Source of the DNA: Marasmius tenuissimus
Taxonomy: Eukaryota > Basidiomycota > Agaricomycetes > Agaricales > Marasmiaceae
DNA length: 64,000 nt
Reading direction: 5' to 3'
Assembly: GCA_029532415.1 (NCBI GenBank)
Contig: JAQOTA010000054.1
Location: 4,179,644 to 4,243,643, forward strand
Part shown: positions 9,132 to 54,072 of the stretch, one piece after another
Numbering within the stretch: position 1 is the first letter of the stretch
Layout of the letters: each line of letters opens with the position of its first letter
The notes under the pieces: generated by a model
Told to the model about the DNA's origin: nothing
Databases searched by the model: none
What the model saw: only the letters and a program-made list of their open reading frames with translations
Position numbers and translations under genes: made by a program

Positions 9132-11155
9132 TCCATGAACAAGGAAACCCTGTGACGGATTCGGTATCGGAGAATGTGCATTCGCCCACATCAAGTCGGA
9201 GAGTAGGCATAAGTGGTACGATAATCACGACAGTCAGTAGTCCCTATTTTGGAACACGTCCACTCTGAGGCTAAATCCCGGCGCGACGTTCCTCAGGCTA
9301 TCAAGAGCCTCCAGTTCTATCGATGGCATCAGCCCGTCCTCGCTCCTTCGAGTATGATTTAGGTATTCGATGACCAAGCACAAGTTCCGGCCCTGCAAGG
9401 GATCTGGTGCACTCCCCAATGTCGAGGATGTTGAGATAGCGTTTACGAGATGATCGATGTCAAATTCCGTCCCGAAATAAATCAATGTAAGGTCTGTAAG
9501 CTGGGTATGGTACGGAAGGGATGAGGAGGAGCTCGGTTCATGGTTCATGAGTACAAGCTCGAAAAGTTGGTGGAGAAAAGCCTCCGTAAATATCCGACTA
9601 CAGGAAGGCATGAACACTCCGGAGATTACCGTTTCCTCGATGCAAAGGGACTTGAGCCTGGGGAACAGTTGTAGGATATCAAGACCTGGACCTGAAAATG
9701 CGCCAATTCGGAGGTGAGTGATGGTGCAGGAGGAACGTTCTAGGAATTCGGTAAAGTGTGGATGGTTCCACTGGTTCTCTGCTTTGTCGGAGGGAAGAAG
9801 GAGAGTGAGAAGACGTGGAAATGTGAAGTGTCGCAGGGTATATGGAGCGTCTGTGGAGTGTTCCAGGGCCAGATATTCCAACATAACGAGAGAGATAGGG
9901 TTGGGCGCCTCGGACTCAATTTCTGAATCGTCTGTAATCCTGACAGAGGTAATACGGAGTTCCTTCAATTCTGGAGTTCCTCTTAGCATCTCAACGAGCG
10001 AGAGGGTATCGATGGTCGATATCTGTAGGTTCGTAATCTGCCTCCACGGGAGACTGAGCCGACTCCATTGCTGCACCAGGGGCGGGACGTTTAATTCGAG
10101 TGATGTGAGCAGGGGACAGCTCTCGAAGCCCTGAAGAAGGGATTGAGGATCCGGAGAAATCTGCAGGAGCAGGCAACAAATCGGCGGGGCTAACGTTAGC
10201 CTTTCGAGGGAAAGCGGCGGTGGTCGACAAAGCCGCGCGAAAGACGGATGGTCAAGCTGAGAGAGTGAACATCTGCTGAAGTCGAAGTCAACATCTCTCC
10301 ATCGCTCCTTCATTTCGGCAACTGAATCCATCAAATCCATCATGTTGTGAGACCACGTCTCATCCAAGTCGACCAGACCGAGAGATAGGTTCAACGGGGC
10401 CGCCTCTGACCGTGCCAAGAATAATCGAACCGCTCGCACAAGTCGAGGGAGATATGTTCCAAACTCTTTTGGCCCGGTCGCGGCCTCACCGAGCCATCCA
10501 ATTGTATCGAAACCGATATTTGCCCATAGGGATGGTGTAGAAAGGATGATTTCTCTCCAGCGACCACACACTGAGGCCAATTCCAGTATTTCAGGAGCTT
10601 CCTCTATCGCAAGCCACGTTGGGATACAGATACAAGTGAAGATCCTAGTCAATAGCTCCGGTGGGAGTCGGTGGATCGGGGAGAGTAGGGAACGGATGCT
10701 GGCTATTGAGGTTTTCAGGTTAACACCGAGTCCATCTAAGCCGTCAAGTTGGCTCGGTTCCTCCGCTTGTTCACTCAATTTGCCTTCCAATATCTGGGAA
10801 ATAAAAATCCTCCTTGATGGAGACATTGTATTGCGAGACATGTTCTGAACCTCAGATGCTAGAGTAGCTGAGAAGCATTCGAACTGTGTGAGGGCGTTGA
10901 AGTTCATGGCTTTTCCTATCACTTGAATGTTACAAGACTCAGGGGGAGATACTAGGGTTGAGAACTTGCCTAGATACTCCAGCGTCGAAAAGTTGAAATC
11001 GATAAGGAAACGGTGAAGCTGGTCGTAGTCACAAAGGTAAACTGCCGGACCTCTGTACCCCCGCCGGCAGTTGAAGTTCTCACGCCCGTTTTGGTTCTTT
11101 AGCAAGTCGCGATGTAACATGTTCATTGGGCTCTTCGTTCTCTATCACAACTCCT
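9132..11155. repeat. Tandem duplication unit, copy 1 (F-box gene)
   Basis: Copy 1 of an approximately 2-kb direct duplication; the other copy is 11533-13625. Similarity is not limited to coding DNA. The 3' flanks share the 20-base block CGGTATCGGAGAATGTGCAT (from about 9162 and 11560). The 5' flanks share a stretch ending near TTCTCTATCACAAC and TTCTCAACCACAAC. The borders are estimated by eye. Confidence 0.8.
9234..10907 (-). CDS. F-box/leucine-rich protein, tandem copy 1
   Basis: A single-exon gene for a 557-residue protein. The F-box is SPIHRLPPELLTRIFTCICI, followed by LASVCGRWREIILSTPSLWA; in the known family this part binds Skp1 and docks the protein in an SCF ubiquitin ligase. A long leucine-rich region follows, probably the substrate-binding part, with repeats such as LTSLELNVPPL, ITNLQISTIDTLSL, LEYLALEHS and LKSLCIEETVI. 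The start at 10907 was chosen because that Met is conserved in the tandem copy. The frame stays open upstream to an ATG at 11126, and the duplicated DNA upstream also matches, so a longer N-terminus is not excluded. It is strongly similar to the copy at 11715-13406. Such proteins are greatly expanded in Agaricomycetes, and the target cannot be deduced. Confidence 0.85.
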   Translation of the reverse strand: MNFNALTQFECFSATLASEVQNMSRNTMSPSRRIFISQILEGKLSEQAEEPSQLDGLDGLGVNLKTSIASIRSLLSPIHRLPPELLTRIFTCICIPTWLAIEEAPEILELASVCGRWREIILSTPSLWANIGFDTIGWLGEAATGPKEFGTYLPRLVRAVRLFLARSEAAPLNLSLGLVDLDETWSHNMMDLMDSVAEMKERWRDVDFDFSRCSLSQLDHPSFARLCRPPPLSLERLTLAPPICCLLLQISPDPQSLLQGFESCPLLTSLELNVPPLVQQWSRLSLPWRQITNLQISTIDTLSLVEMLRGTPELKELRITSVRITDDSEIESEAPNPISLVMLEYLALEHSTDAPYTLRHFTFPRLLTLLLPSDKAENQWNHPHFTEFLERSSCTITHLRIGAFSGPGLDILQLFPRLKSLCIEETVISGVFMPSCSRIFTEAFLHQLFELVLMNHEPSSSSSLPYHTQLTDLTLIYFGTEFDIDHLVNAISTSSTLGSAPDPLQGRNLCLVIEYLNHTRRSEDGLMPSIELEALDSLRNVAPGFSLRVDVFQNRDY

Positions 11156-28900: not shown

Positions 28901-29525
28901 TCACTGTGGTGTATATATTGTCATTTTAACGCCTAATTCTTGCAAAATCTGCTCTGTATCTTCCCATGGTACGCCAAACTTTCCCGAATTAAATCGACTG
29001 AAAAGAGCATATCAGACTTCACAGAAAAAGAAAAAACAGATATAGCCGTCATAGTACGCACCAGGCATGAAGTTCCTTATTGCCTTTATTCTGCCTAATC
29101 AAGTCCAACACCGCCTTCCTCGTAGCATCGAGTATCTCATCCGGCTTGTCCTTTCTCTTTCCATAAGCCTTCGAAGTGAACAAGCATGCGACATCGTGAG
29201 GATTCTCAGACCCCCCTCGGATCACTAGACAAGTGCCTATGAGGTCTTCTGGGTTGTGAGCCTTGCAGTGGGTGTTGTAGGTTTCGAAATGAGAGGGGTA
29301 GCGTTCTTTGAAAGTGACAGCGATTCCTCCGCCCCAGGACCCTACAGTGTTGCAGGCGTGGACGAGGATGGCCCCGGTGGGTGCTTTGAAGAGATCCCCG
29401 GTGACGTGAGTTATGGAGGATATCGTTGTAGGGAGATGATGGTAGTAGGTGGTCAAGCTGTCATTGTCAAGCGTCAGCCGTGCTGACCCAAAGTCATGGT
29501 GGTTCATTTTTACTCGTAGTGACAT
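28901..29525 (-). CDS. Macro-domain protein, ADP-ribose 1''-phosphate phosphatase type
   Basis: A macro domain of the yeast Poa1 type, which binds ADP-ribose derivatives and removes the 1''-phosphate left by tRNA splicing. Exon 1 (29525-29062) carries ITHVTGDLFKAPTGAILVHA, then the ligand loop NTVGSWGGGIAVTFKERYP. After a 64-bp intron, exon 2 (28997-28901) gives RFNSGKFGVPWEDTEQIL, the second family signature. The product is 186 residues, close to yeast Poa1 (177). The ATG at 29525 is followed by a second in-frame Met six codons on. It could instead act as an ADP-ribosyl-glutamate hydrolase, as some relatives do. Both exons join in phase and show no damage. Confidence 0.9.
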
Positions 29526-29705
29526 TTGTTCTTGAGTAGACAATTTTCCTTGAACCTTGGTGAACTAGTATGTACATATACACTTCCAGCCTGAACTACG
29601 CCATAAAATTAGGCACCAGCGTACGGGTCGGGCATATAATCTCATTTTCCTTCATTCCATTACTGGATACGGATCGCTCAGAGAAGCTTTGGAATCCGGC
29701 CGCGT

Positions 29706-30650: not shown

Positions 30651-31002
30651 CGATGAGGTAGATGTTGGGAATCAAGAGCTAATTGCGGCCCAGGTCAACT
30701 GAAAATTTCCTTTTTTACGTAGAATTTGATGCATTGTCTTCAACGCGGGAACCGCGTGGTCGAGTTCCGTAGCAGCTTTGGGCGCGGTTCTGTAGCGACG
30801 GCGAGCAAGGTAAAAAACATGAGTTCGCTACGATTTCGCGAACATTGAGAAAGATTTCCGAGACGATGTGGAAAGGAACGTGGTCATCGTTCTACGCGAT
30901 GCCGAAGCTGTCGTGCCAAAACAAGGACAAACATTCCTTCATCGCGAACCACGACCACGGGCTTGCTTGCTCATCGTCATTCACGTTGAGCAACCTCTCG
31001 AA

Positions 31003-32328
31003 ATGGCTATGTCATATCAGCAAGCACAGGCGGAAGGCCTCGTTCTTCGACATCCTGAAAACTTGGGACTTCATCGGGAAATTTCTCTTGATATGGCTGT
31101 CCAAATGCTCTTACGCGCTCCTGGGATGTCACAAAACGTTCCTTACAGTTGGACGTACATAGATAGACCTATGGGTGAGTTCAAGCCTTATTTTCCGCGC
31201 ATGTTACAGGCCGTTCATCCCGTTTCAGAGGGCCAGCTCTACCTGTTATGCATGGCACAGAACGTACCATTCCCAGTCGACGGAATAAGGTGGCAAGAGC
31301 AGGAAACCAGATTCAACATGCCAGCTGACAACTCGAATCAACGCGTACGTGATCCACCCATCACAGAGAAGACACCATCTCATCCATCGAATTGCAGGAA
31401 CTAGAAGTCCACGAAATCAAGTTTGGCTTCATCCCAGGCTCAGACGATACCAACGCGTGGCGTGTGCGCAGACGGTTCCGCCTTACCAGGGGCGGTATGT
31501 CCTCCCTCTGGATAGTCCACTACACGCGTGGAAACGGCGCCCCCATAATACCATCTTTCATGAACCAACCGGTTCGCCCGTATCCTCTACGACACATCAA
31601 TGAACCAGCACTGTTCATCGCGGGAGAGAAGATGGGTCAAAAGGTCTACCCTCCAGGGGCTGTTCCTCCACAGGGTGGGGGTCGTGGGGGACCGGGAGGG
31701 CCAGGTCCAGGGCCAGGAATGCCTGGGGCTCCTGGGATGCCGATGAATATGCACCAACAACAGGCGATGTTGGCGCAGCAGAATAATAGGATGGACATGA
31801 TGGAAGCTAGAAGAGACCAGAGAGCGCGTACTGGAAGTACAGCGGCTGTGAGATACTTTTTGTCGTCTTTTGCGATTCTTGTGTTTGCTGACAAACGAAC
31901 GTATTACTAGCGGCCACCGCCGATGATGGAAGAGGACTCTGGAGACGAAGGAGAGACGATATCAACGAAGCACCTCGCGCTGACGCGGTATAAGCGTAAC
32001 CATGACTTGATGAATGAAGTTTTCATGCAGGCTGCTTTCGGTGCGCTTCATTTCTTTGCGTGCGTCTGTTTCCCATTGGCTGACTCCCTCGGCTTCAAGG
32101 CGAAAAAAACAAACCTCCACCTCCCTCGCCGTTTTCGAACTTTAACAAGGAAGAACTCGAAGAGCAAACGGTAGGTTACGCTAGTGTCTCAAGATCCTTT
32201 GCATATGACTGAAGAATCTTCAGGCGAAGCTCAACGCTGAAATAGAAGCCTTACAAGCTCGTTCCCAAGAGCGCAAATCAAAACGGCTGACCGGGGACAT
32301 ATCCATGTCGGCACCGCTTTCCGTGTAG
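31003..32328 (+). CDS. SSR4: SWI/SNF and RSC complex subunit Ssr4
   Basis: A fungal subunit of the ATP-dependent chromatin remodellers SWI/SNF and RSC, acting in the nucleus. The N-terminal Ssr4 domain is clear: EGLVLRHPENLGLHREISLD, VQMLLRAPGMSQNVPYSWTY, GQLYLLCMAQNVPFPVDGIRW, VHEIKFGFIPGSDD, WIVHYTRGNGAPIIPSFMNQ. A glycine/proline-rich linker (GGGRGGPGGPGPGPGMPG) and a Gln/Met stretch follow. The conserved C-terminal block contains ISTKHLALTRYKRNHDLMNE and a helix (EELEEQTAKLNAEIEALQAR). At least five short introns are read, with exon 1 ending at about 31174. The frame stays open upstream of 31003, but this is the first ATG that matches the usual start; the next Met (31009) is also possible. 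The gene looks intact. Confidence 0.88.
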
Positions 32329-37724: not shown

Positions 37725-37731
37725 TATAAAA
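37725..37731 (+). promoter_or_regulatory. TATA box of peptide gene A
   Basis: TATAAAA stands 49 bp before the ATG, within GCTATAAAAGCACCTCAA, which is identical in gene B. The short distance implies a very short leader. Confidence 0.75.
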
Positions 37732-37773: not shown

Positions 37774-38195
37774 ATGCGTTTCACTGCTATTGCATTCGTG
37801 CTCGCCGCGGTCGGCTTCGTTGCTGCCAACCCTCTTGTCCCTCGGAAGCCGGGAGATCGTTAGTATCGTTCCGCTCCTCCCATGCTCTGAATGCCGACTG
37901 ACGACCGCTGTCTGTCTGCGAATAGCTTGCAGCCATGACAAAGTGAGTGACAATCATCTCTTCTACGCATCCAATGTACTCATATAGTCACTCATTCAGC
38001 CATGTACATCTTAACCTTGACCATAAGCCCTCAGTCTACTTACCATTTTTTACTCGTGTTTTAGGCAAAGGCAAAGGAGAACTCTGCTGTGGAAGTGTCG
38101 GAAAAGCCACGTAAGCACCCCGCTTGTCTCCCAAAGATTGATACTCACGTCCCGGACGCTATAGCTGTATGGTGGCGGACTTTTGCATCAACTAA
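37774..38195 (+). CDS. Secreted six-cysteine (knottin-like) peptide A
   Basis: A five-exon gene: 37774-37858, 37926-37942, 38000-38003, 38065-38110 and 38165-38195. Exon 3 is only 4 nt (CCAT) with AG before and GT after. The product is 60 residues: signal peptide MRFTAIAFVLAAVGFVAA, short propeptide NPLVPR, then a mature part with six Cys at 30, 36, 43, 44, 52 and 58. The pattern C-x5-C-x6-CC-x7-C-x5-C is the framework of cystine-knot (knottin) peptides. Genes B, C and D have the same exon phases (1, 0, 1, 2), which is strong support for this model. The function is unknown; a stable extracellular peptide (defence, signalling or inhibition) is inference. It is not a hydrophobin, which has eight cysteines and two CC pairs. 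Confidence 0.85.
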
Positions 38196-39535
38196 GAACG
38201 AAGTTAGAATAGCGGGAGAGGCCCTATGGAGTGCGGGGTTTTGTGAAACAATCGATCGGCATTTGATACAATCCAGAATAAATCGGTTTACTTGTGTTTG
38301 TTCGTGATTTCTGAGTTGGTATACCGCCTTACTCGAACAGTACCGCCCTGTCCGCAAAAATTCGAATCACGGATATACTGTACAAGAGTGTATCCTCTCT
38401 GGTTCTTAAGGTCCAAAAAATTGAAGTCCTCGCCGAGTTTTCGTAGATAGTCCGAGGCCTTCGGTGGTCGATGAGCTTGAAACGTCGTTACCCGTATCAT
38501 TGTTGCATGAAATTATCTTCAAGCGAGCTGAGTTCATGAGTCAAACAAAATACTTATTGGCTCTCCTGTGGCTTGTCCAATGAACCCCCTAATGGAGACT
38601 TGTAGAACACTGAAAGTATGAATATGACAGTCCCGCTACATACGAGCCCACCAAAGTCCATTGACAGAATGCGGCGCCACAGTTGGTTTTGGTTTCGGCA
38701 TTTTGACTGCAGGATCGCCGTCTTGTGGCATTGTTGTGGCCTCTATTTGTGTGACTTGTCATCAGACATATCGACCTCTGAAGCTGTGACTGCAGGCTGG
38801 GCGGCAGAGTGATAGAACTCGCAGGTTTCAACCATCTTTCAGTACTTCAGTCTTGTTGCTCAGTCAAGTTTCAAGAAATTGGCCCGAAAGGAGTAGCATC
38901 CTGAAGATTCAGCGTGAATGACTCCTATTTTCAGCCCGAGTTGCCTGCCTAAGGTCTAACCCTAACCCGAAACCTCAGAACGACGATGCCCCAGTGCTCG
39001 TCAGTGGTCAACTGAGACTGCAACCACGATGTCATGAATTTTCCTCACCCAACCGTCGCCCATACAAGCTCTCAGTCTGCGTGCTCGACCTGGCGGTTTC
39101 CGAGTTGGTAGCACAGCCAGAGTGGAGATGATTAATCATCAGCGAATTCGACAATCCTCTCCCTCTTCTCAATCCCTCTTCCAGAAGGCTAAGACGCGTG
39201 TCTATAACCCGACAGTCGCCTAATGTTTTGAGCCACTCGGTTTGGATTTCCGTATCGTGCGTCGCATTGTCCTATCAGGTCACAATGGCCCCAGTTACTG
39301 ATGGCAATGTCGACCAACACGAAACGGAGGTACTTGTATTTGTGGGAAAAGTGCCTGCAGAACCAGATGAAGTTTTTGTTGCTAATTGAAACTGCAACTC
39401 GCAAAACCCCGAATCCGTAGTATGGCTGCCACTATGTGGCAGGCCGCAGACTACGATTGACCAAGTATTTGACGGATACCAGCCCAATCCGACCCATCCG
39501 CGTCAGGAGCCCTATTTAAAATTCGTGGGCTTTTC
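38196..39535. other. Flank of gene A and unassigned DNA
   Basis: Up to about 38680 this is the 3' part of the duplicated segment. The rest has no recognised gene. A two-unit CTAACCCTAACCC stretch near 38957 is too short to be telomeric. Confidence 0.45.
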
Positions 39536-40019
39536 CTAGTCTTCTTCGTCTTCATCGCCCGCAGGTTCCCTTGCAGTATCCGGAATGTCCTCATCAGCGA
39601 CGTGACCATCTTCATAAGCCTTCTTGACGCGTTCCTGATCTTCCTCCTTGAGGTCCTCGAATCCGTCGAGCTCCGAGGCCTCCTCAAACTGAGCTTTCAC
39701 GTTCTCAAGCTGCTCTCTGGTGACACATCCCCAGTGGCGCCAGGCGCTGTTGCGAAGACGTCAGGCACAGGGGGTTGACGATGACAAAGGTGGGTACGTA
39801 CAACACCTGTTTGCCATGAAATTCAACGGTCGTGCCAAAACGAAGAGAGCCTTCGGTAATCACACTGCCTGAAGAAGGTTTCAGTCATTCAACGGGAACG
39901 AAAGCCTCGAGGGTGATGCGCGCATACTATGACATGGTTTGGGGCCTGTCAAATAGTTGACGGACCATTGTCAGATTGCACAGCCAAGGAGGGACACAAG
40001 AGGACCACTGACCCTTGCA
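39536..40019 (-). pseudogene. 5'-truncated PARP-type zinc-finger protein
   Basis: Read on the minus strand and spliced across introns of ordinary form, the frame gives CKG, PKPCHS, SVITEGSLRFGTTVEFHGKQ, VFAWRHWGCVTREQLENVKA, then LDGFEDLKEEDQERVKKAYE and an acidic tail ending GDEDEED at 39536. This is the small fungal zf-PARP protein, with zinc ligands C, C, H and C present; the family is linked to DNA-end binding. The segment that should precede CKG (start Met and the YRxEYA strand) is missing. Upstream of the TGCAAGG exon (40019-40013) the frame meets TGA within four codons, and the DNA there belongs to the peptide-gene duplication. The duplication border therefore appears to have cut this gene. 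An unrecognised distant first exon is the alternative. Confidence 0.75.
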
Positions 40020-40659
40020 CTCCAATATTCACTCGTCCCATACATATACGGTCCCTAGCTCGCTGACGGTCATTCTCTATTCAACAGCCCCTGCGTTTCG
40101 AAAATCAAGCGAATGAATGCGACCGTGTGGTAGTCGACGGCTTCATGAATGGAGAATACACGCTCAGAGGACTCTGGGTCTCTCTCACCTTGATGATTTC
40201 ACCTCGATTATTTGGCCTCAAGGGGAGCTATTAGTGTCGGTCTTGAAGGTCAACTTTTTTGTCGCGTGTCTACCACCACCTTCTAGTTGTGATAGTCAGA
40301 ACCCCGCCTCTGTCGTACGACAGCCCAGGGATGCTCGACTGGGGTTCTGACACATAGTGTCATCGAACTGTACGTATTCTTTTCAATCAAAAACTCTACT
40401 AGACTTTACTCACCCTGCCGCTGAGAGTCACGGGAAGACTCTGTGAGACCCCTGAAAACACTCAAGGCCTTGGTCTAGTTCAAACTTTGCTCCTTCTGCA
40501 CTACCCGCAACGCTCGGAGCTCGTGTATAACCGACTTATCGTTTCATCTGATGTGTAACCGCATTACGGGCAAAGCGGTGGTGGGAAGCGCGGGAGCAAT
40601 GTTCTCTCAGTTTACATATTCAAAGGCCTCACAAACTCTTGGCGTCCCATCTCGAAAGC

Positions 40660-40666
40660 TATAAAA
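40660..40666 (+). promoter_or_regulatory. TATA box of peptide gene B
   Basis: TATAAAA in the same 18-bp context as in gene A, here 78 bp upstream of the extra leader DNA and 84 bp before the ATG. Confidence 0.7.
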
Positions 40667-40743
40667 GCACCTCAAAGGCGTCCTAGGAGATTCACAACAC
40701 CCCAGTTGTTCATTGTCCTCAGTTCGCCGAGTTCACATTCACC

Positions 40744-41164
40744 ATGCGTTTCACTGCTATTACATTCGTGCTCGCCGCGGTCGGCCTCGTTGCTGCCAAC
40801 CCTCTTGTTGCTCGACAGCAATGTTAGTATCATTCTGCTCTTCACAGTTTGGGTGTTGACTGACGACCGCTATGTCTTTTCTTTTGAATAGCTTGCGGCC
40901 CTGACCAAGTGAGTGACAACAGTCTCATCTACACATTCAACGTGCTTATATTGCCACTCGCCCTGACAGCCATGTACATCTTAACACTGACTATTAGCCC
41001 TCAGTTTACTGACCATCTCAACTCGTGTTTTAGGCACTGGCCCAGGAGAACTCTGCTGTGGAACTGTCGGACAAGCCACGTAGGCACCCCGCTTGTCTTC
41101 CAAAGGTTGATACTAACGTCCCGGATGCTATAGCTGTCAAGTGGCCGAAATTTGCGCCATCTAA
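40744..41164 (+). CDS. Secreted six-cysteine (knottin-like) peptide B
   Basis: Five exons as in gene A: 40744-40822, 40892-40908, 40970-40973 (4 nt, CCAT), 41034-41079 and 41134-41164. The product is 58 residues: signal peptide MRFTAITFVLAAVGLVAA, propeptide NPLVAR, then cysteines at 28, 34, 41, 42, 50 and 56 in the pattern C-x5-C-x6-CC-x7-C-x5-C, identical in spacing to A. The core reads ELCCGTVGQATCQVAEIC. Skipping the microexon would put the rest out of frame and destroy four cysteines. Read without the last intron, the frame would stop at the TAG inside the donor (ACGTAG) and lose the last two. Substitutions relative to A fall mostly between cysteines. Confidence 0.85.
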
Positions 41165-42062
41165 GAGCGGGGAAGATAGAACGACGGGGGAGGTCCAGAG
41201 TGCGCGGTATTGTAAAACAATCGATCAGCATTTGGCACAATCCAGAATAGATCGGTTTTCATGCGTCCTCACGATTTCTGAGTTGTGGCACTGGTACTGC
41301 TTTACCAGAGTAGTACCGCCCTGACCGCGACAGTTTGAATCATGAATATACATGAGTGTACCCTAGTTCTTTGGGTTCAAAAAGTTGAAGCCCTCGCTGA
41401 GTTTTCATAGATAGTTCGAGGCCCTCAGTGTGGCCGATGAAATTGAAACGTTACTTGGAAGTTGCATGCAGTTATTATGGAGAAACCTGAGCTCACGAGT
41501 CAAACAGTATACTTAGTGGCTCTTCGGCGGCCTAAGAGATGAAACTCCTGATAGAGACTTGGAGAATAATGAAGAGACAGATAACAGTCCCGTTACATAC
41601 GGACCCCACAACCCCACACCAAAGTCCATTGAATGCGGCGGGCCGCCTCTTAGTACTTAACAATTCAAAGATCCACCCTTACCGGCTTGCCCAAGCTGAG
41701 TGGCGACCCTACTAGACCTACTTCTGATCTGAGTCAATACAGACCGGCACTCGGATATCAGGTTATTCGGACACCGTTCCCCGTCCAACGCCGTCCGGTT
41801 TCTACTGACTTGACCTCCAACCCGTCTCACCCGAAGCCCATTTCTGTTACTCCCCACTTCATCCTTGGCTTCACGGCCATCGTAATTGAGACGAAAAGGG
41901 TATCACCAGAGTGAGCGCATTTTTTGGAATAATTGCCGACCCTACGACACACTGCATCACATTACTTGGCTCTCACGAACGAATCGTATAAAGCGACTCA
42001 AGATTTATCGAAATTATTCAACTTGCTACTGCCAGTTACTACTACTCAAACTCATCATCATC
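41165..42062. other. Intergenic region between peptide genes B and C
   Basis: Up to about 41645 it is the 3' flank of copy 2. From about 41670 to 42062 it is the promoter of gene C and is loosely similar to the region before gene D (48600-48972); shared blocks include TTCACGGCCA, GTCACCCGAA/CTCACCCGAA and CGTATAAA. No further gene was seen. Confidence 0.55.
41987..41993 (+). promoter_or_regulatory. TATA box of peptide gene C
   Basis: TATAAAG in the context GAATCGTATAAAGCGACT, matching GGATCGTATAAAACGACT before gene D. It lies 76 bp before the ATG. Confidence 0.65.
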
Positions 42063-42486
42063 ATGCGCTTCTCAACTATTGCCTTCTTCCTCGCTATCGC
42101 TGGCCTCGCTGCCGCCAACCCGCTCGATGCCCGTCAGGATGACCCAACGGGGCGCGGTGAGTGTTTCACGTTTCCGTGCACGACCAACACCTAACTCTTC
42201 TTTGCTGCAAATTAGAGTGCTCCCTACAGAATGTGAGTCCCCATAACATTCGAACGCGCCTCTAACGCTGATTCCTTCTCCTATAGCCTTGTGATTGATT
42301 CCTTCCGACAACATGTATCTCTTTCCGTTCTGCTAATCCCTGAACTCGTTATAGGCCCCGTCGGTTGGTGCTGTGCTGGGAACATTGGGAGCCAAACGTC
42401 AGTGGTCCCGTCCTCCGCACTGGTGACGACGCTAACGCTTCCGTGCTGTATACAGGTGCCAGATCACATCGATCTGCCCCAGATAG
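42063..42486 (+). CDS. Secreted six-cysteine (knottin-like) peptide C
   Basis: Five exons: 42063-42156, 42216-42232, 42287-42290 (4 nt, CCTT), 42355-42397 and 42456-42486. The product is 62 residues: signal peptide MRFSTIAFFLAIAGLAAA, propeptide NPLDAR, a slightly longer acidic spacer (QDDPTGRE), then cysteines at 33, 39, 44, 45, 54 and 60. The spacing C-x5-C-x4-CC-x8-C-x5-C differs a little from A and B in the two middle loops. If the microexon were read through, the frame would hit TGA two codons after CCT TGT. All intron phases equal those of A, B and D. It groups with D by signal peptide and promoter. Confidence 0.85.
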
Positions 42487-43749
42487 AATCTGAATGCTGG
42501 AGGAGGCGGATGTTTCGCAGGATAGTTCATTCTGATGCTAGTACAATTGAATTGAATATGAATGAGTGTTTGTTGGTGTGAAAGGCTATTCTTGATTTAC
42601 GTAGATTTGATGGCAGACACCACGAGATTTGTCCAAGCTGGCGATGATTGCTTGGCGACAATTGTCCTGAAACACCCTACAAGACCCACAAAGCGTAGCT
42701 GACTGCTAAGGTCCCCTCAACGTCCCATTTAATTTTAGCCGAATAGCCTGCGCGGTTCGATCGGAAAACGGAAGACTAACTCACTAATCTATAGGACGAA
42801 GGTTCGGGATGTTAAAACGTCCGACAGGTCGAGACCAGTGGTAGGTGTTGCCAACGCCCCCGTGGCTGCTTCGACCCGATCTTGTGCCGGCTTAATTGCC
42901 GAACCTTTAGGTTTGGCTCCTCTATGAGAATGCTCTGGGGTCAAGTTTTTGAGACTCAGGTTCCCACGCACCATATATAGGTATAGCCTTTCATAAGCGC
43001 TCGAGCTGGGCCTCGTGTATAGGCGCCCGTTATGGCCCTTTCCCTTCACACACTCCGCGATCTCCTCGACTTGGAATTGCCACCGGAGAATCTACACAAT
43101 TGCACACCCCTTGCCCTCTCGTTAAATCGATCTTAATTTGCGCGACTTTTTGTCACATACTTTCCTCAACTTGGTCTCGTGTTCAACTCATGATTCGCTC
43201 GTGTTAGGACGGTGACCGGCTGAGTTGGAAAATGGTGAGACGGTGTGAAGATTCGAACTCAAGGTCTGGTGCGTCCCCTGCCTCTCTGCTTGCGTTGACA
43301 TTACACAAGTATACTGAAGATTATATCCTTGTTCAAAACCCTATCAGTCCTGTTAGCCTTCTGCAGTCTTCGTATTACTACCATTCTTATTACCATCCTC
43401 ACACTATTCGGGAAGATTCGGCACCAAGGCGACGACATTTGTTGGGCCTCATAAGGTATCTATCATCCTCAAGCGCATCTACATGGCACGAAGTATTTTC
43501 CCGATGCCTGTCGGTGACTTTTTGGCATGGAGTCTTCGGATGTCTGTCATCACCCTCGGACAGTGTTGTTGGTCAGATTCCCGACCCAAGGACCTTTTTA
43601 GGTAGGGATTGGGTGGCTTTACCACTACAATTAGCTTTTCAGCAGGTTAAGAATCAGATTGACTTGGTATCCTACATAAACACTCAACCAGGACTTGAGT
43701 TTTCCTCGCATCAGATAAACTAGACCGCTGTTACTGTCAGGAGCATGGA
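42487..43749. other. Intergenic region
   Basis: This extends from gene C to the left end of the transposon. A TTCGAAT-centred motif near 43250 (minus strand) resembles a tRNA T-arm, but no complete tRNA can be folded around it. No gene was recognised. Confidence 0.45.
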
Positions 43750-46169
43750 CACCAGCAAACCCATGACGGTCTGCCCAGTGTCTGACCGTGATGACAAGTG
43801 AGAAGTAGACTTACCCGTACTGGTACGCTGCTGTAAAGACAAAATTAAACTGTTGGCTTATGATCACAGAATGCTCACCTACAATCAGTCTTGAGATCAA
43901 GTGAAAAGGCATAGGTAGCTTGAGGGTCTCTGATAAGATGTTGATCAGCGGCGGATAAGATGGATTAAGACTGAGATCATCTTATCAGAAGACAATCAGA
44001 TGCTGGTCAGAGCGCCCAAGGCTGGCCGCGTCCGAACAGATAGCTTCAGACTGGCAATACCTGTACAGAGACTGCTCAGCGCCAGTACAGAAAGCTTCAG
44101 GCTGATTAAGTCCAATAATTAATTTACCAGGCCATGTTCATAGGTGGTCAGACTATTCAGTGTGCTGGAGCAGTCCAGCCTGGCAGACTGTCAGGCATTG
44201 TCTATGACTTAATACACATCTACTCTGATTGACATCTACTCCTAGAGACTAGAGGAGAAATCTCAAGCCTGAGACCGTGTCTCTCCGGGAACAAGACATC
44301 ATTAAGGTCGTTGCCGAAGGTCAATTTGAGGTCAATGACAGTTGTGACTTGTCGTCGCCGCCAGTGCGCTATTACTTAAGTAGTATGGATGTTTCAGGGT
44401 TAGGGTGCATCGGCGCTTGCGCAGGAATTGTTAGCGCTGGTCAGCTACTCACACAGCATCCGACGTGTCATCAACTCTTACTACTCTTTACTCTCAACCA
44501 CCATTATAATCTCTTACAATCTAGTCTTGGCCTATCTATATCATGGTCAATTGCCATCAAATTGTAGCCTCCAAATGAACTAAAGGAAATAATTGATAAT
44601 TGGAAATGAGGTGGTGAGATGGAACTCGCAGACTAGGTGCGTGCTCAACAAGTCTATCTTATTGTACAAACAAGGATGCCAATTACTTTTATCCAGCCAT
44701 TCTAAACAGCTGATGAGTTTTACAGCAAGCACAAGAAGAACTACAACCATTGGTCCATTACTGGATCTTTCAAACAATCGTAGGCAGACTCAACGTTTGA
44801 CAAGGCAACACAGACTATGCCGCTGTGTCTCGAATAATACAACCAGATACCTCGCGAAGCTGATCTTGGATGGCTTTGATGACATTCAAATTGTCATTAA
44901 CGTCATTGTCGATTCGCCGCTTTCACAACCCGCACGGACCACCCCGCCAGGTATATAAGCCCAACGCTGTCCAGTTTTCCCCGTACTTTCTTCCCTCCCT
45001 CCCACCATCACCCCCTTTGGTTCGCTCTCCGCCGCAATCTTTTTTCCCTTGTACCCATATGGCTCGCAACCTCGCTATAAGCTATTGGTGAGAGCTACCC
45101 TATTTGTATTTGCTGAATACCAACTCAAAGTACTCCAAGCCACCATACCCCATTTTGTGATAGCGATATGGAATCATAAAGGTGTGTATCAGTGCTACTG
45201 CCATTCATGATCCCTCGTTTAACTTACCGTACTTTTCACATGTTGTAGGGCTGACTGAATTCAGAACGTGACATCGAGTACGTTGCTCCATCCAGCCACC
45301 TCAATTGGGGTATGTTTGCGTTGTTTCTACCATTTCGCACATCCGAGCTGACTATATGCACTTGGTTTGCGCCTCAAGAATCGCCTCGACGCATCAAGAG
45401 TGCCCTGTCCCACCACCTATCTGCATATCCGACGATGCTGGCAACTGGACCGTTGTTGTGGGTGTTCACCATTGCCCAGGTCTCAAATGGTAGATCATCT
45501 CCTTAAACTGTTGTAGCATCAGTTGACTGATACCTCAATTTCTGTAGGTCGTTGCGAAACGGATCTCTAATGACGGTAGTAACATTGAAGCGTGCTGCGT
45601 AGGAGCCCTCATGTGTCTTTTTGTAGCATTCGTATGTGGTATACTTGCAATGACCATTCTTTATTTGATACTTTCTTGGTGCCAATGGGGCCTAGCTGCG
45701 TGAATTAAATATTTTGTGGTGTCGTCGGACTGAAGAATGCAGCTCGTGAGTCGTAAGTATTGAATTGAGTGGACAGTACGTGCTAGGCTGACTATGCCTT
45801 ATAATACCTGTCACTCTGGCGGCGTCTGACCATAACAGTCAGTCTGACAACCTCTGACCATGTCGCTCAGCCTGATGGCGTCTGGTCATGGTGATCAGTC
45901 TGGTGGCATCTTACCATCGTGGTCAGTCTGACTACCACAGTCAGTCTTTTACATCTTGTCAGATCCTGGTCATATCATTTCATACTGATAATAACCTATC
46001 ATCTGCTGCCAGACTTACATGTATTACAAGTTACTATAAGTATTCCGACGATCCATTAGAAACGTAGATCATCTTCAGGAGAGGATCAGCCTAGTCTAGA
46101 CTGACGTCCTCTCAACCCGTCTGACGGGGCTCATCAGTTGCTGGGCAGGTCAGCCTGGTTTCGCTGGTG
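43750..46169. mobile_element. Non-autonomous DNA transposon with subterminal repeats (2.4 kb)
   Basis: The ends form imperfect terminal inverted repeats. The left reads CACCAGCAAACCCATGACGG and the right, read inward, CACCAGCGAAACCAGGCTGA; both then share CTGCCCAG. The 350-450 bp next to each end are packed with short GTCTGAC/GTCAGAC-type motifs in both orientations, as in CACTA and KDZ elements whose transposases bind subterminal repeats. No clear target duplication was found (GA/GA at the edges; GAGC occurs in both flanks). The interior (about 44250-45760) has short frames but no transposase I recognise. The superfamily stays open. It separates peptide genes A-C from D. Confidence 0.65.
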
Positions 46170-48972
46170 GAGCGCACGAACGACTCCGTGAGTGCTCCCA
46201 TCTGTTTGTATCTATGCGCGCAGACACCATTCTCAAAGGCACGTGGTATTCATCTATGATCCCTCTGTGATCTGACCGGCTCTTAAAACTTTGTTTATTT
46301 CATCTCTGTCTCTCCCTTTGTAAGTCATTCAATCTATACCTGTCTGGATTGTTAAGGCCAGGCGAGTACCTTCCCTTGAGCAACCCAAAGGCACAAATTA
46401 AGTGACATATTTTCCCTGGTCACATAGAAGTTAGAACTCGCGCTTCAAGGCTCATTATCACCTCGGCATATTTTGTCGATAATCCCAAGTTGTCATCAAG
46501 AGCACCGTGCATGGAACGATGGTCATATATGCGTGAACGACTAGATATCAATGCATACCCCGCAAGTGGTATTGATATCATCTTTACTTCTGCTTACTGG
46601 TACTTACCCCCAATGAAGATTCTGTTGGTGCTATCGGGCGTGTACTGATGAAGACTGATCAAAGGCCAACCTGCCAAAAAGTCATTGGAAATCATCAGAA
46701 TACGGCGGATACGTTCCGTTATATGGGTGCCATCTGACGCATTCCGATAAATGGGTAGCACACCCATTTCCCTCAAATTCAGTCAGATAACGTTGGTGTA
46801 CATCATCAAGTCTGGTCGTAGCTGATGCTGATTGACATACTTTACTAGTACTAGGTCTTCCAGTTTCCCTCCTCCCCGATCCCTACCCCTGGCCTTGTTC
46901 CCAGTTCCCTCCTCCCGATCCACCCCCGCCCGTTCCCATTCCCGCCTCCTACTCTTTCGGTTGCCGCTTCCTGTCACGATCCTCTCTCCAGACTCCAGGT
47001 ACCAGATGAAGCCGTAGGTTTTTGCATTCCGCCGGGTGTCTGCAGAAACTGTATCAGCACGAGTATGTGAAAATGGATAAGTTATACCTTACGGTTGTGG
47101 CAACTAGGGCCGATTCTGCCTGTTCGAGGCGTCTCAGACTTCAATGAAAAGAGGGGATTAGTTCAACGTAAACAAGGAGAGAGAGATAGAACACACCATG
47201 TATTCTAGTCCCTCTCCGTTCGCCCAAGACCTCGATATCCGATTGCCACCCTGCCGCCTGACTGTCTTCTGCGATTCCCTCCTGTACGTCAAGTTCCTAG
47301 AAATTCCGCCTTCACATCATAAGTAAATACCTGCGCAACGCAATGATAAACTCACCTATCACCCTCTGGCCTAAATCCTACCTGTCCTAACCCAAACCGT
47401 GTCCCAAGCTTTTCGTTATCCACAGCTCTATCATTGTAATGTTGCCTGTCACTTGCGAGAATGGTTATAGTCGAGCGGTGAGCCTGCTAACGTGAGGAAT
47501 CGAGGTGAGAACGAGTGAGGTGGTTTGGAGATGATGGTGGTGGGAAGGAAAGGGGCGACATGAGCGGGAAGTTTGGGCAAAGGGCTTGAAATGGCTACGC
47601 AGTCGTGCACGGACCATCTCTCCGGACTTCTTCAGGGACATCCGAACAAGTGTGGAGCATGGATCAGGGAACGTCAGAACAAGTCGGAAGTCGGTCAGAA
47701 TTTGTTGGTCCCATCAGAGGGCACCCGACAACGTCGAATGGCACCAGCGTACTTCTCGTTGGGACTTACCGACAGGAACTCCCTTGAAATTGCATGTATT
47801 GCACTCTTCACTACCAATAGCTACAAATGTAGGACCCTGTCTTCATCAATATGTATGCATGTTGGTTGAATTCCGCATCCTCTCACCCATGGGCCATGGC
47901 CCAAGCGCAACTGGCAAATCAGGCCAATCAACAAGACTATACGGTGCGTCTTCTCCCTTCTTCCGATGACGTCCGTATAATCAAACGAAGCACAGTCTCC
48001 CTGCCTCTAGCGGTCTTGACAGAGGTGCGCTCATGTACCATGAATGTCGAGATTTATATGTACCTCGTTTGCAGACATCAGTAAGAGTCTGTGCTTATCC
48101 GGGCTTGAGGAGAACTTCGATCGTGTGGAGTAGTTAGCATTTTCGGCCATGTCAATCACAATACCACAGTTGATTAGCCTCACTAGTCAAATTGAGTAAC
48201 ATATTTTACTGTGCAATACACCGTATTTTGAGTAAATGTTCCAGAAATTTACGGGCGCAGAATTTCAGAATGCTGACGTGACCGGACCTGAACTTCAAAG
48301 CTCGCTGCTCGAGGCCTGATACACGGTCTTCCCCGAAGGTTCGGCCCATGCCGCTTGCGGCCATCCCCCCCCAGTCATAGTTGTGTATTGGTCATACGAG
48401 GTAGTGAGTGAGCAATTTGGGTCCCCCCCTGAACCGGGCGCTACCTTTCCCACATTTGCAAACGCCAAAGGAGATGTTACTCTCCAGCCACAGGTGCTAG
48501 ACTCGTGAACACAGCCCCGTGCTACGTACCCCGCAACCTCGTACTAATACTATGGCTTGTTGAGTGTGGTCAGTCCTTGTGATCGAGCCTGATACAAAGA
48601 GCCACTTCTACCTCCACCCCCTTGCCCGAGCTTAACGGCGATCATCATTCTAGTAAGGTTGCCTACATACCTTTGATGTGAGTCAACAATACCGACCGGA
48701 CCTAAATTTCTCAGCTACTCACGAAGTTGTGCTTTGACCGGGGATAAGTTCGATTCATTCTCCATAACCCGCGTCACCCGAACCACTTCCTATTTACTGC
48801 TCGACACTCAGAGTTCTTGGTCGTTGGGGTTTCACGGCCAGAATGAAGGAGAAAACGGGATTTATGAAGTTGAGATTGCTTGGCTCTGGCGGACGGATCG
48901 TATAAAACGACTTCAGGGTTCATCGAAACAGGCCAACTTACCACAAGTTACTGCAAACCCATCGTCAACATC
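46170..48972. other. Long gene-poor region
   Basis: No frame with a domain or believable exon structure was found in 2.8 kb. The last 370 bp are the promoter of gene D and resemble the region before gene C. Short tracts of C occur near 48366 and 48424. Old transposon remnants are likely but I could not define any. Confidence 0.45.
48901..48907 (+). promoter_or_regulatory. TATA box of peptide gene D
   Basis: TATAAAA in the context GGATCGTATAAAACGACT, 72 bp before the ATG and matching the box of gene C. Confidence 0.7.
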
Positions 48973-49430
48973 ATGCGCTTCTCAGCTATTGCATTCTTCT
49001 TCGCCGTCGCTGGCTTTGCTGCCGCCAACCCGCTTGAGGCCCGTCAAGAGATCGGTCAGTATATCGTGCCTCTAGACTCTGAACGTACGAACAACGAACT
49101 AACACTTGCTTTCTTTGCCTGGGTACAGCGTGCAGTGCAACCAACGTAAGCCCCCTTAGATTGTCCAGACCGTGCCTCCGACGCTGACTACTTCCTCGCT
49201 TCCTCAACAGCCTTGTAAAGCCTTTGACAAAGTGTTATGTCTGCTTCCGCGTCGCTAACCTTTGACCTCTTTTCAGGCCCACCAAACCAAGGTTACGTCT
49301 GCTGTGGAACAGTTGGAAACCAAGTGTGAGTAATCCAACATCTAATCTCGAACTTCCGTACCCTCGATACCACTGCTAATGCTTCCTATTCTTCAGTTGC
49401 AGGGTTACAGACTTCTGCGAGTTCAAGTAG
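48973..49430 (+). CDS. Secreted six-cysteine (knottin-like) peptide D
   Basis: Five exons: 48973-49054, 49129-49145, 49211-49214 (4 nt, CCTT), 49277-49325 and 49397-49430. The product is 61 residues: signal peptide MRFSAIAFFFAVAGFAAA, propeptide NPLEAR, then cysteines at 29, 35, 43, 44, 52 and 58, giving C-x5-C-x7-CC-x7-C-x5-C. The core reads YVCCGTVGNQVCRVTDFC. The microexon donor GTAAAG and acceptor CAACAG are both good. The 17-nt exon 2 has the same length as in the other three genes. It sits about 6.5 kb from gene C across the transposon, so the family was spread before or by that insertion. Confidence 0.85.
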
Positions 49431-49953: not shown

Positions 49954-51822
49954 CTATACTTTCATCGGTGGTCTGCGAGCCTCCGTATGGTCTTCAAATG
50001 ACCAATTCTCTTCTACGTTCTCAGATATTCCCGTCGAGTTATCGGATCCCTTCTCCCCCTTTTTCCTACGGGTGTCAACAACACTCTTTCTAAACTCCCC
50101 GTCTCCCTCGTATCCCAGCCATGTATACCTGCTGCAATGAGGACCCCTCATGAAAAGAACAAAGATAGCGAATCCTGCCCACGCCACTTGAACACCAGCA
50201 CTAGCCCTCCATCCGTGTTCCAGGTAAAGCTTTGTTCCAACTGATGATCCCATGACTTGACCACAGAAGAACTAAGAAAACGACCGTCAAAAATATGCAC
50301 AACGAATGAGAGATAGACCTAAACGCAGCCGTACCCCAACGATATTCACGGCATTCAACCGGGCTCGGGCTTCCGGCGCTATACTTGAATGAAGTTCAGC
50401 AAAGTGTTCTGACCGTGTGCGTAAGAGAGGAATAAAGACGTACCTGAAGATACTCGCCGCCAACGATGTTTGTACCGTTTGTCGAAATAGATCAATACCC
50501 ACAATGGCGATCACCACAGCAGATATGTGTAGCCCCCCGCCGATCAGCTGTACGATCAAGAATACCATGGTACCGATGGACCCAATGAGTGTCGCGTACC
50601 ACGCTCCGAGATTGTCGATAATATGTCCAATAATGGGACCCATCGCGACCCCACTTATTCCAATGAGACCAAAGAGACCTATAACAAGGCTGGTGCAACG
50701 AAACGGTTCAGAGCGAAGCTCAGAAAAGGAAGAAAAAGAGCGAAGAACAAATGCTCACGTTGAATAGTTATACGGGTCCCCTCCCAGAAGGAACGTCAAA
50801 GTAACCCAGAAACTGGAGAAGAGGGCACTCGACGCAATGTTGATAAGGACTGCTTGCACTAAGATCGGCTCGGTGACACAGTACTTCCCCATTGAGGAGA
50901 GGATCTCCCAGTACGTGAGATGACTATTCTTCGCTGGGTAGTCTGGGAGCAGGAGATAGGAGCCCACGATCACAATCCCTTGCACGCCAATTGCGAGATA
51001 ATACACGACCCGCCATGCCACGTACTGTGCTATGATCCCGGAAATAACTCGAGCAATGAGGACTCCGAGCAGGAGACCAGCGAAGACTACAGAGATAGCA
51101 GAGGCTTGTTTTTCTGGTGGCGCCAAATCAGCTGCGAGAGGTATCAGAACCTGTGGAGTCACCGTAAAGACTCCAACAAGAAAAGATAGTGCAATGAAAA
51201 CCTCGATTTGGTTCGTGATAGCGAGGCCAACGGTGAGACCCATAGACATGATGACGAGGGCAAGAATCAACTGCCGACGACGTACCAGGTCCCCAAGGGG
51301 AGACAGAAAGAGAAGCCCGACAGCATAGCTAGCGAGAATCTATTAGCGACCGCGCTTCCTCTCCATGCAAGGATATAATTACCCGACCTGCGCCAGAATC
51401 GGGACACTAATACAACCAATCAGCATTTCGAACAACCGGAAGGAAGTATTCGACGCACTTTGATACCTTCGAATAAGATACTTCGAATGTTTTTGAGAGC
51501 TCGACTGTAAGAATCCTTTAGCACGGTTGTTGACGCGTAGTAGATAGATGTTGGCCATACTCAGCAACGGCTGGCAGTAGTATAAATTAGCAACCGCTGG
51601 AGACAATCACTGGTTAATAGCGTCGCGATACACAGAGAAAGCAGACGCACTGAAAGTACTGGCAAATCCGAATGCGAGCTGTAGCATGATCCCGAAATGG
51701 AAAGGTTTCTGAGGATCATATCGTAGTCGTCGTGGTATGGGTATCAGTCCAAAGTCCGTTGTGTGTTGCTCTGAGATCCCAGCGGCTTCTTTCGAGGCCT
51801 CGTCGCGGACAATGACGGTCAT
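49954..51822 (-). CDS. MFS transporter, tandem copy 1
   Basis: A plasma-membrane transporter of the major facilitator superfamily, drug/H+ antiporter-like. The cytosolic head MTVIVRDEASKEAAGI is followed by segment 1, and an intron joins FGFA to TVANLYYCQPLL. A short exon adds IELSKTFEVSYSKVS, and the next gives NVPILAQVG. The loop motif is GDLVRRRQLILALV; later blocks include PQVLIPLAADLAPPEKQASA, GVLIARVISGIIAQYVAWR and LTYWEILSSMGKYCVTEPIL. The second half carries GPIIGHIIDNLGAWYATLIG, and the hydrophilic tail ends ARRPPMKV. The YCQPLL type is shared with bacterial exporters of the same superfamily. All exons join in frame, and the gene appears functional. The substrate is unknown. The copy at 52195-54072 is very similar. 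Confidence 0.88.
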
Positions 51823-52194
51823 GGTAGAGGCGCAAAGGAGAGATGCCAGGAATTGGAACTGGAAAACCTGAAAAATTGCCTGCAGTCCATGGGGGACTAA
51901 ATGACTCGCGGGGGGTCATGACGCGATACTCTTGGCTACTGGCTAATTCGGACCGCTTGTCAAAGACTCAAAGTCGGTTGGGACTCGGAGAGCTCGGCTC
52001 AAGGCCTCTAGAGTCTTTGCCCAAAACTCAGGCGAAGATCGCTCGGACCTAGGATCAGAATGGATATCATCGGAATGCTTGTGTGTCAGCTCTATTCATT
52101 GATTCGATTTTACGATTGTACTACACGATAGCATATAGCTTTGGGAGATCATTGAGTTAAATTCACTGCAGGAACGCTTCAGAACACGCACATT
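51823..52194. other. Spacer between tandem MFS genes
   Basis: This holds the promoter of copy 1 and the 3' flank of copy 2. No gene was seen. Confidence 0.5.
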
Positions 52195-54072
52195 CTAAGA
52201 GGGTTCTCCCGAGCCCGCTTTCCCCGGTGGCCCTCGAGCCTCTGCATCCTCCGCAATAGACCGTGTCTCTTCCATATTCTCAGATATCCGCGTCGAATTA
52301 TCAGACCGCTCCGCTTCCTCCTTTCTACGAGCATCGACGACGCTCTTTCTAAACTCCCCGCCTCCCTCGTATCCCAGCCATGTATGCCTTCGGCAATGAG
52401 GACCTCTCGTAAGCAGCACGAAAAGGGTCCATCCTGCCCACGCCACTTGAATACCCGCGCCAGCTCTCCATCCGTGTTCTAGGAAAAGCTTTGTCCCAAC
52501 TGACGATCCCATGACTTGACCACAGAAGATCTAAAAAAATGCACGTCGAAATAAGCACAATAGACTGGAAATAGACCTAAACGCCAACTGCCGGCGTACC
52601 CCAAGAATATTCACCGCGTTCAAGCGGGCTCGGGCTTCCGGCGCTATACTTGGGAATGCAGTTCAGCAGGGAGCTTCGGCCGTGTGAGAGTTGAAGACAT
52701 ACCTAAAGATACTCGTCGACAAGGAGGTCTGCACTGTTTGTCGAAATAGATCGATACCCACGACGGCGATCACCACAGCAGATATGTGCAGCCCGCCACC
52801 GATCAACTGGACGGTTGAGAACACGATTGTACCGATAGACCCGATGAGTGTCGCATACCACGGTATGAGTTTATCGATAATGCGACCAATGACGGGGCCC
52901 ATCGCCACCCCGCATATCCCGACAAGACCAAAGAGCCCTATGACGAGGCTGATTCAGAAATCAGATCAGAGCGATGTTAAAAAGAATAGAGAAAACAAAA
53001 GACTCACGTGGAATAGTTGTACGGGTCTCCTCCCAGAAGGAACGTTAAAGTAACCCAGAAACTGGAGAACAGGGCACTCGAGGCGATGTTGATAAGCACT
53101 GCTTGCACCAAGATCGGCTCGGTGACACAGTACTTCCCCATCGAAAAGAGAATCTCCCAATACGTGAGATGACTATTCTTCGCCGGGTAGTCTGGCAGTA
53201 GGAGGTAGGAGCCAGTGATTACGATTCCTTGCACGCCAATGGCGAGATAATAGACCACCCGCCATGTCACGTACTGCGCTACGATTCCAGAAATAACTCG
53301 AGCAATGAGGACTCCGAGCAGTAGACCAGCGAAAACCACGGAGATAGCGGAGGCCCGTTTTTCTGGTGGCGCCAAATCAGCTGCGAGAGGTATCAGAACT
53401 TGTGGAGTCACCGTAACGACTCCAACAAGAAAAGATAGTGCGGTGAACACCTCAACTTGATTTGTGATAGCGAGGCCAACAGTGAGACCCGTGGACATGA
53501 TGACGAGGGCGAGGATCAACTGTCTCCGGCGCACAAGGTCTCCCAAGGGAGAGAGAAAGAGAAGTCCGATAGCATAGCTAGCAAGAATATGTCAGCGACT
53601 GCGATTCCTTTCCCCACAAGGACAGAATTACCCAGCTTGTACCAGAATAGGAACACTTATACTGTTAATCAGCGTTTTGGAGCGACTTTGACGAGACATT
53701 TGACGCACTTTGATACCCTCGAATAGGACACGTCAAAGGTTTTTGAAAATTCAACTGTAACGATCCTTTAGCACGGTTATTGACTCCTCGCAAGTAAAAG
53801 TTCGTGGTACTCAGTAACGGCTGGCAATAGTACAAATTTGCAACAGCTAAAAAAAAGCACAGGTTATTAGCGTACCGCTATACAGAGAAAGCAGACGCAC
53901 TGAAAGTACTGGCGAATCCAAACGCAATCTGTAGCACAATCCCAAAATGAAATGGTTTCTGGGGGTCATATCGTAACCGTCGTGGGATGGGTATGAGACC
54001 AAAGTCCCTTTTGTGCTGCTCTACCGTCCCAGTATCTTGGTTCGATGCTTCGTCAGGGTCACCAACGGACAT
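52195..54072 (-). CDS. MFS transporter, tandem copy 2
   Basis: A paralogue of the gene at 49954-51822, in the same orientation with the same exon plan. The head is MSVGDPDEASNQDTGTVEQH, followed by DFGLIPIPRRLRYDPQKPFH, shared with copy 1. The first intron again joins FGFA to TVANLYYCQPLL, using donor GTACTT and a T-rich acceptor. GDLVRRRQLILALVIMSTGL, LIPLAADLAPPEKRASAISV and GPVIGRIIDKLIPWYATLIG mark the membrane core. The tail diverges most (RKEEAERSDNSTRISENMEE; ending AGSGEPS). Identity within membrane segments is very high, whereas head and tail differ, as expected from a fairly recent duplication with relaxed termini. No damage was seen. Confidence 0.88.

Follow-up and report, generated by a model that had tools for sequence, protein, structure and literature searches.

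Genes for predicted knottin-like secreted peptides in Marasmius tenuissimus share a putative 4-nt exon

A family of small six-cysteine preproteins

At the end of a 4.24 Mb contig of Marasmius tenuissimus (JAQOTA010000054.1, here C28), the analysed window of 64,000 nt (4179644-4243643) carries four genes, g1 to g4, of a family of predicted secreted six-cysteine peptides whose models all depend on an exon of only 4 nt. We consider it somewhat probable (about 0.55) that these genes are functional and encode secreted mini-proteins stabilised by cysteines, with a processed signal, a knot-type scaffold, partner-binding loops and a required 4-nt exon. What can be read directly in the DNA, and forms the basis of this reading, is a five-exon structure, the conserved 4-nt exon, a signal-peptide-like start, the motif NPLxxR and six cysteines. 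The gene models, obtained by in silico splicing, are as follows (window coordinates).

37774..38195, + strand: g1, 60 aa; exons 37774-37858, 37926-37942, 38000-38003, 38065-38110 and 38165-38195; architecture common to its relatives
40744..41164, + strand: g2, 58 aa; exons 40744-40822, 40892-40908, 40970-40973, 41034-41079 and 41134-41164
42063..42486, + strand: g3, 62 aa; exons 42063-42156, 42216-42232, 42287-42290, 42355-42397 and 42456-42486
48973..49430, + strand: g4, 61 aa; exons 48973-49054, 49129-49145, 49211-49214, 49277-49325 and 49397-49430

In the order g1 to g4, the first exons measure 85, 79, 94 and 82 nt, the second 17 nt and the third 4 nt throughout, the fourth 46, 46, 43 and 49 nt, and the fifth 31, 31, 31 and 34 nt; scripted splicing gave introns of 54-74 nt, all GT-AG. 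The translations begin with a signal sequence MRF..., continue through NPLxxR and end in a part of 34-41 residues in which the six cysteines are fixed and the loops vary. The cysteines follow the order C-C-CC-C-C, with loops of 5, then 6, 6, 4 and 7 (g1 to g4), then 0, then 7, 7, 8 and 7, and finally 5 residues. A preliminary description of this DNA had placed four genes of 58-62 residues here with this signal, motif, cysteine order and loop lengths, and the spliced translations agree with it in each respect; its remark that no exon exceeds about 95 nt also holds, the longest being 94 nt. It had added that the family is easily missed, and the genes are indeed hard to find because of their tiny exons; ordinary gene finders could easily pass over genes of this type.

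The 4-nt exon

The preliminary description did not include a 4-nt exon, yet every gene model requires one. The phases of exons 2 and 4 are incompatible, and the 4-nt exon brings the frame back; in g1 it encodes a proline and contributes the initial T of the second cysteine codon, which is completed in the family by the GC of exon 4. Splice enumeration and alignment place the exon in the window genes at these positions.

38000..38003, + strand: 4-nt exon of g1, CCAT
40970..40973, + strand: 4-nt exon of g2, CCAT
42287..42290, + strand: 4-nt exon of g3, CCTT
49211..49214, + strand: 4-nt exon of g4, CCTT

We infer this exon by comparing paralogues, which comprise nine distinct loci, seven of them intact (g1 to g4 here and h1 to h3 on contig C62) and two broken. 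The broken loci were included in the intron alignment and excluded from splice enumeration, shuffles, loop and charge comparisons and substitution tests. AG-NNNT-GT lies between exons 2 and 4 in all seven intact genes, flanked by introns of 54-74 nt before and 60-65 nt after, and the frame AG-NNN-T-GT is invariant at 9/9 loci, the broken ones included. With five invariant columns in eight, it is the densest invariant block of the exon 2-exon 4 interval in the nine-locus alignment; the introns are 41-70% identical in four of the six pairs compared and 75-95% identical in the two closest. The putative microexon is thus conserved between paralogues, together with its AG and GT, at every family locus.

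Enumeration of middle exons of 1-20 nt recovered the six-cysteine pattern only with 4 nt, in all 11 copies tried (the seven distinct intact genes and four mirrored copies described below), whereas models without a middle exon recovered it in one of the 11, h1, through other splice sites. When the interior of the exon 2-exon 4 interval was shuffled, a 4-nt solution appeared in 43, 42, 7, 76, 37, 34 and 78 of 2000 shuffles for g1, g2, g3, g4, h1, h2 and h3, and any solution of 1-20 nt in 202, 240, 32, 302, 124, 118 and 279 of 2000; because the genes are related, these per-gene results are not independent chances. Without the 4-nt exon, the second and all later pattern cysteines disappear in 7/7 genes; a stop ends five of the resulting frames inside the region examined, and the other two remain open. 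CTNAY branch-like sites occur in 26 of the 28 introns of the intact genes.

Two clusters in the genome

Searches of the genome DNA (71 Mb, 70 contigs) found nine distinct genes in two clusters, four in the window and five on C62, and a mirrored copy of the four window genes elsewhere on C28. A 25-residue signal query run against the whole genome at E up to 10 returned exactly 13 places, all of them family members, although such a query scores only the best candidates and could miss more distant relatives. A finder pairing a signal-like exon 1 with CC-C-C exons 4 and 5 reported 11 places in 293,643 bases on both strands, again all family members; applied to both strands of 2.94 Mb of dinucleotide-shuffled sequence, the same finder gave no hit, and it gave none in the reversed sequence. 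The local amplification proposed in the preliminary description is supported for a signal-bearing six-cysteine family. The C62 loci are listed below.

C62:311718, + strand: intact family gene with a CANG-type first loop
C62:313355, + strand: intact family gene with a CANG-type first loop
C62:335032, - strand: intact family gene with a CANG-type first loop
C62:272624, - strand: broken gene, interrupted after the 4-nt exon
C62:360147, - strand: broken gene that appears to have no fourth-intron donor

The intact genes also share an upstream TATAAA, at -49 to -91 relative to the ATG in 7/7; among the broken genes it is present in one and absent in the other. In the window these boxes lie as follows.

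37725..37730, + strand: TATA box of g1, 49 nt upstream of the ATG
40660..40665, + strand: TATA box of g2, 84 nt upstream of the ATG
41987..41992, + strand: TATA box of g3, 76 nt upstream of the ATG
48901..48906, + strand: TATA box of g4, 72 nt upstream of the ATG

Cysteine spacing and database comparisons

Across the seven intact genes the cysteine loops measure 5, 4-7, 0, 7-8 and 5-6 residues, and all seven satisfy the knottin spacing C-x2-7-C-x3-10-C-x0-7-C-x1-17-C-x4-19-C, a formula quoted in PMC6889267. Knottins are built as small, secreted, cysteine-rich scaffolds whose loops vary, with disulfides I-IV, II-V and III-VI, the last threaded through the ring. A knottin fold is compatible with the sequence and plausible. 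In Pfam none of the seven proteins scored above a cut-off (best raw E 0.0047), NCBIfam yielded no match with the four window proteins, and PDB sequences gave no significant match to two profiles and three of the seven mature peptides; neither the Pfam nor the PDB searches linked the peptides by sequence to a knottin family that is curated or has a solved structure.

The listings below these thresholds point nowhere clear. In Pfam, delta ctenitoxins reached E = 0.26 and 11.9 bits against a cut-off of 27. The WAP four-disulfide core was listed for g1 only, one protein of seven (E = 0.0052, 17.5 bits, below its cut-off of 20.8), and we rejected it; the WAP domain has eight cysteines and the peptides here have six. 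Metallothionein PF05522, listed for g1 and g4 (two of seven) at 17.2 and 17.8 bits against a cut-off of 23, was likewise discarded. Among PDB sequences the listings were a carboxypeptidase A inhibitor at E = 0.071, a TRPV1-inhibitory peptide at E = 0.099 to 3.6, two EGF variants and factor X, none of them significant; we do not rely on the carboxypeptidase A inhibitor as a functional hint because unrelated listings are about as weak.

Divergence of signal and mature parts

Substitutions were compared in nine of the 21 possible gene pairs. In eight of them the signal part carries less non-synonymous change than the mature part (Fisher p 0.012 to 3e-12), the contrast being non-significant for h1-h2 (p = 0.22). 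Between g1 and h2, the 24 signal and propeptide codons contain no non-synonymous change and the mature part about 44, while synonymous differences stand at 0.30 and 0.50, respectively. The signal and propeptide are thus conserved and the predicted mature loops diverge much faster, as the preliminary description had noted for the residues between the cysteines.

With the cysteines removed, the proportion of non-synonymous differences in the mature part (pN) exceeds that of synonymous differences (pS) in five pairs and falls below it in four. These mixed results indicate loops that have diversified and are at most weakly constrained in several pairs, with positive selection unproven. We weighed positive selection for g1-g2, whose mature parts have a ratio of non-synonymous to synonymous rates (dN/dS) of 2.8, and do not claim it, since p = 0.14 without cysteines; the introns of this pair differ by 9-25%.

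Proposed function and its alternatives

In the proposed pathway, the signal peptide would be removed, a protease would cleave after the Arg of NPLxxR and three disulfides would hold the mature part in a knot-type scaffold. That scaffold would require inclusion of the 4-nt exon, since the frame shifts ahead of the second cysteine when the exon is skipped. If cut after NPLxxR, the peptides would have net charges of -5 to +2, five of the seven being negative and most neutral to acidic; such charges favour a putative protein-binding or inhibitor role over a cationic, membrane-active antimicrobial one that acts by membrane lysis.

Several observations weigh against this reading. The donor after the 4-nt exon has no G at +5 in 7/7 genes, which makes it a weak site, whereas introns 1, 2 and 4 have this G in 21/21 cases, and in one gene of the seven, h3, no branch-like CTNAY precedes the inner AG. 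The scans of Pfam, NCBIfam and PDB sequences returned no significant relative of known function. In the mature part without cysteines, none of the nine pairs has a significant excess of amino-acid change, and h2-h3 departs significantly in the opposite direction, with pN below pS (p = 0.0008); the preliminary description's phrase that divergence is as expected for peptides facing changing partners hence goes beyond these data. That the loops would bind a partner molecule of another organism, whether host, competitor or grazer, is itself conjecture.

The 4-nt exon might be an artefact if exon 2 were instead spliced at another GT, four bases further downstream, with introns 2 and 3 forming a single intron of about 118-134 nt; the peptide would then read Val-Ser where the preferred model has Xaa-Cys, and would contain five cysteines. 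This splice would preserve the frame in 7/7 genes and would need no donor directly after a microexon, and its GT falls inside the donor consensus GTGAGT. In g4, however, the sequence is GCCCCC where the GT is needed, and in the other six genes these donors also have no G at +5. The merged intron would contrast with introns 1 and 4 of the family genes, which measure 54-74 nt, and it would leave unexplained both the AG-NNN-T-GT invariance at 9/9 loci and the branch-like sites that precede the inner AG in six of seven genes. In view of the GC in g4, the odd cysteine that would remain and the invariant block, we consider this four-exon, five-cysteine model very unlikely. That the family is decaying and has no current function is more improbable still: two of the five C62 loci look broken and mobile-element-like DNA lies within the window cluster, but seven of the nine distinct genes have open frames and retain GT-AG sites, TATA boxes and all six cysteines, and their signal part is constrained.

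For the peptides themselves, a three-disulfide fold other than the knottin, such as hevein-like chitin binding, is unlikely. Hevein-type domains share the order C-C-CC-C-C, but their spacing after CC differs from that of the window peptides, and no chitin-binding Pfam match was found in the seven proteins up to E = 10, a negative limited by HMMER filters, which discard most weak matches. Antimicrobial or antifungal defence against competitors, in place of ligands directed at a host or grazer, is a doubtful but credible alternative. The peptides are small, predicted to be secreted, cysteine-rich and amplified; the genome matches the class II peroxidase extension (4 matches) and GH7 cellulase (13 exon-level matches, from fewer genes), neither of which matched in any of 14 control genomes, and this would suit a fungus that decays wood or litter and encounters competitors. 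Membrane-active peptides are typically cationic, in contrast to the charges given above. Knottin-like candidates are discussed as possibly antagonistic to microbes in PMC9632046.

For the secreted mini-proteins that we prefer, the asymmetric 4-nt exon and its conserved weak donor might further act as a splicing gate that switches secretion of a loop-variable peptide set on and off, inclusion giving a folded six-cysteine peptide and skipping a frameshift before the second cysteine and nothing useful; we regard such a gate as speculative and distinctly unlikely.

Relation to known systems

MLP124266 of Melampsora larici-populina, a knottin-like protein by nuclear magnetic resonance (NMR) that is related to AvrP4 of M. 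lini, likewise belongs to a multigene family of fungal secreted proteins with a conserved signal and a six-cysteine C-terminal domain with cystine-knot spacing (PMC6889267). Unlike the window peptides, it has no adjacent CC (cysteines 39, 44, 50, 55, 58 and 64) and carries a long flexible N-terminal part ahead of its cysteines, and its fold was determined by NMR, whereas a knottin fold is a candidate reading for the window peptides; as its case shows, a true knottin can lack any sequence relation to known knottin families (PMC6889267). MLP124266 was absent from our PDB sequence matches up to E = 10.

Avr9 of Fulvia (Cladosporium) fulva, set apart by description, differs from the window peptides in spacing and lineage. 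It resembles them as a small secreted fungal cystine-knot peptide (PMC9632046). The knottin-like effector candidates of Venturia inaequalis, structurally predicted families of small secreted cysteine-rich proteins of which some proved defensin-like and not truly knotted (PMC9632046), and the toxin-like families of Beauveria bassiana, small, secreted, cysteine-rich and predicted knottin-like by structure (PMC12099005), are likened here by description, not by sequence. An undescribed family of fungal knottin-like peptides, as the preliminary description tentatively suggested, is partly right: the proteins have no match over Pfam or NCBIfam cut-offs and none significant in the PDB, but peptides of this kind are already in print (PMC6889267, PMC9632046). 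Our search of the open-licence literature, whose partial coverage makes it weak evidence of absence, found no account of this peptide family and no exon below 5 nt shared by a secreted peptide family.

Knottin-like secreted fungal peptides are known; what is newer is the putative 4-nt exon, which is shared across the family and breaks the frame. Other ultra-small fungal exons, the single-nucleotide exon of Fusarium CYP621A and an 8-nt exon of Phanerochaete chrysosporium, also join phase-incompatible exons inside a conserved motif, were found comparatively and have donors partly matching the consensus (PMC12940212). CYP621A differs in that orthologous P450 genes carry an identical AGGGT with supporting RNA reads (PMC12940212), whereas the 4-nt exon of the window family is variable and deduced by comparison. 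Xlr2 of Trichoderma virens provides another microexon in a filamentous fungus, with glucose-dependent inclusion (PMC11121469); in the window family, regulation is a possibility.

If the splice models are right, it is likely that a 4-nt exon conceals a secreted fungal peptide family from gene finders, and censuses of knottin-like secretomes that use automatic gene models could miss such families. The nine ultra-small exons, which vary in sequence and of which seven lie in intact genes, would also form a natural series for studying how a spliceosome of short introns copes with a 4-nt exon whose donor is poor.

Mirrored contig end, inserted elements and neighbours

The window lies in the second arm of a mirrored duplication, C28:4060901-4136593 against 4162489-4243643, with arms of about 76 and 81 kb, a 26 kb spacer and aligned pieces that are 97.8-99.5% identical with indels. 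A 3 kb probe from about 8 kb outside the first arm found no second full-length copy, and the 193.6 kb of the C28 end scanned contained no run of at least three TTAGGG units; the arms may represent two haplotypes that the assembler joined, or a genuine inverted duplication. Between arms, g4 differs at 17 of 458 positions, g1 and g2 at one each and g3 at three; the g4 peptide has a single change, and the fourth donor of g2 (41080-41085) reads GTAGGC here and GTAAGC in its mirrored copy. One insertion separates g3 from g4.

42898..48380, strand not assigned: nested multi-copy mobile-element-like DNA, about 5.5 kb, ends approximate, missing from the mirrored cluster

Its outer element has 97-98% copies on C32, C49, C3 and C18, a second element inside it has 93-97% copies on C23, C28, C19 and C7, and the copies of a third are at most 86% identical; the insertion also contains a 28-nt tandem repeat in four copies (45821-45931). 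A Pfam scan of 20 of the 41 long reading frames in the window gave a family listing for eight, all ordinary, and none for 12. The neighbours at 3348-5321, 9237-11141, 29052-29564, 30823-31907 and 50758-53591 comprise adaptin N-terminal, F-box-like, macro domain, Ssr4-like (below cut-off) and two MFS transporter stretches, and these two transporter stretches adjoin the peptide cluster.

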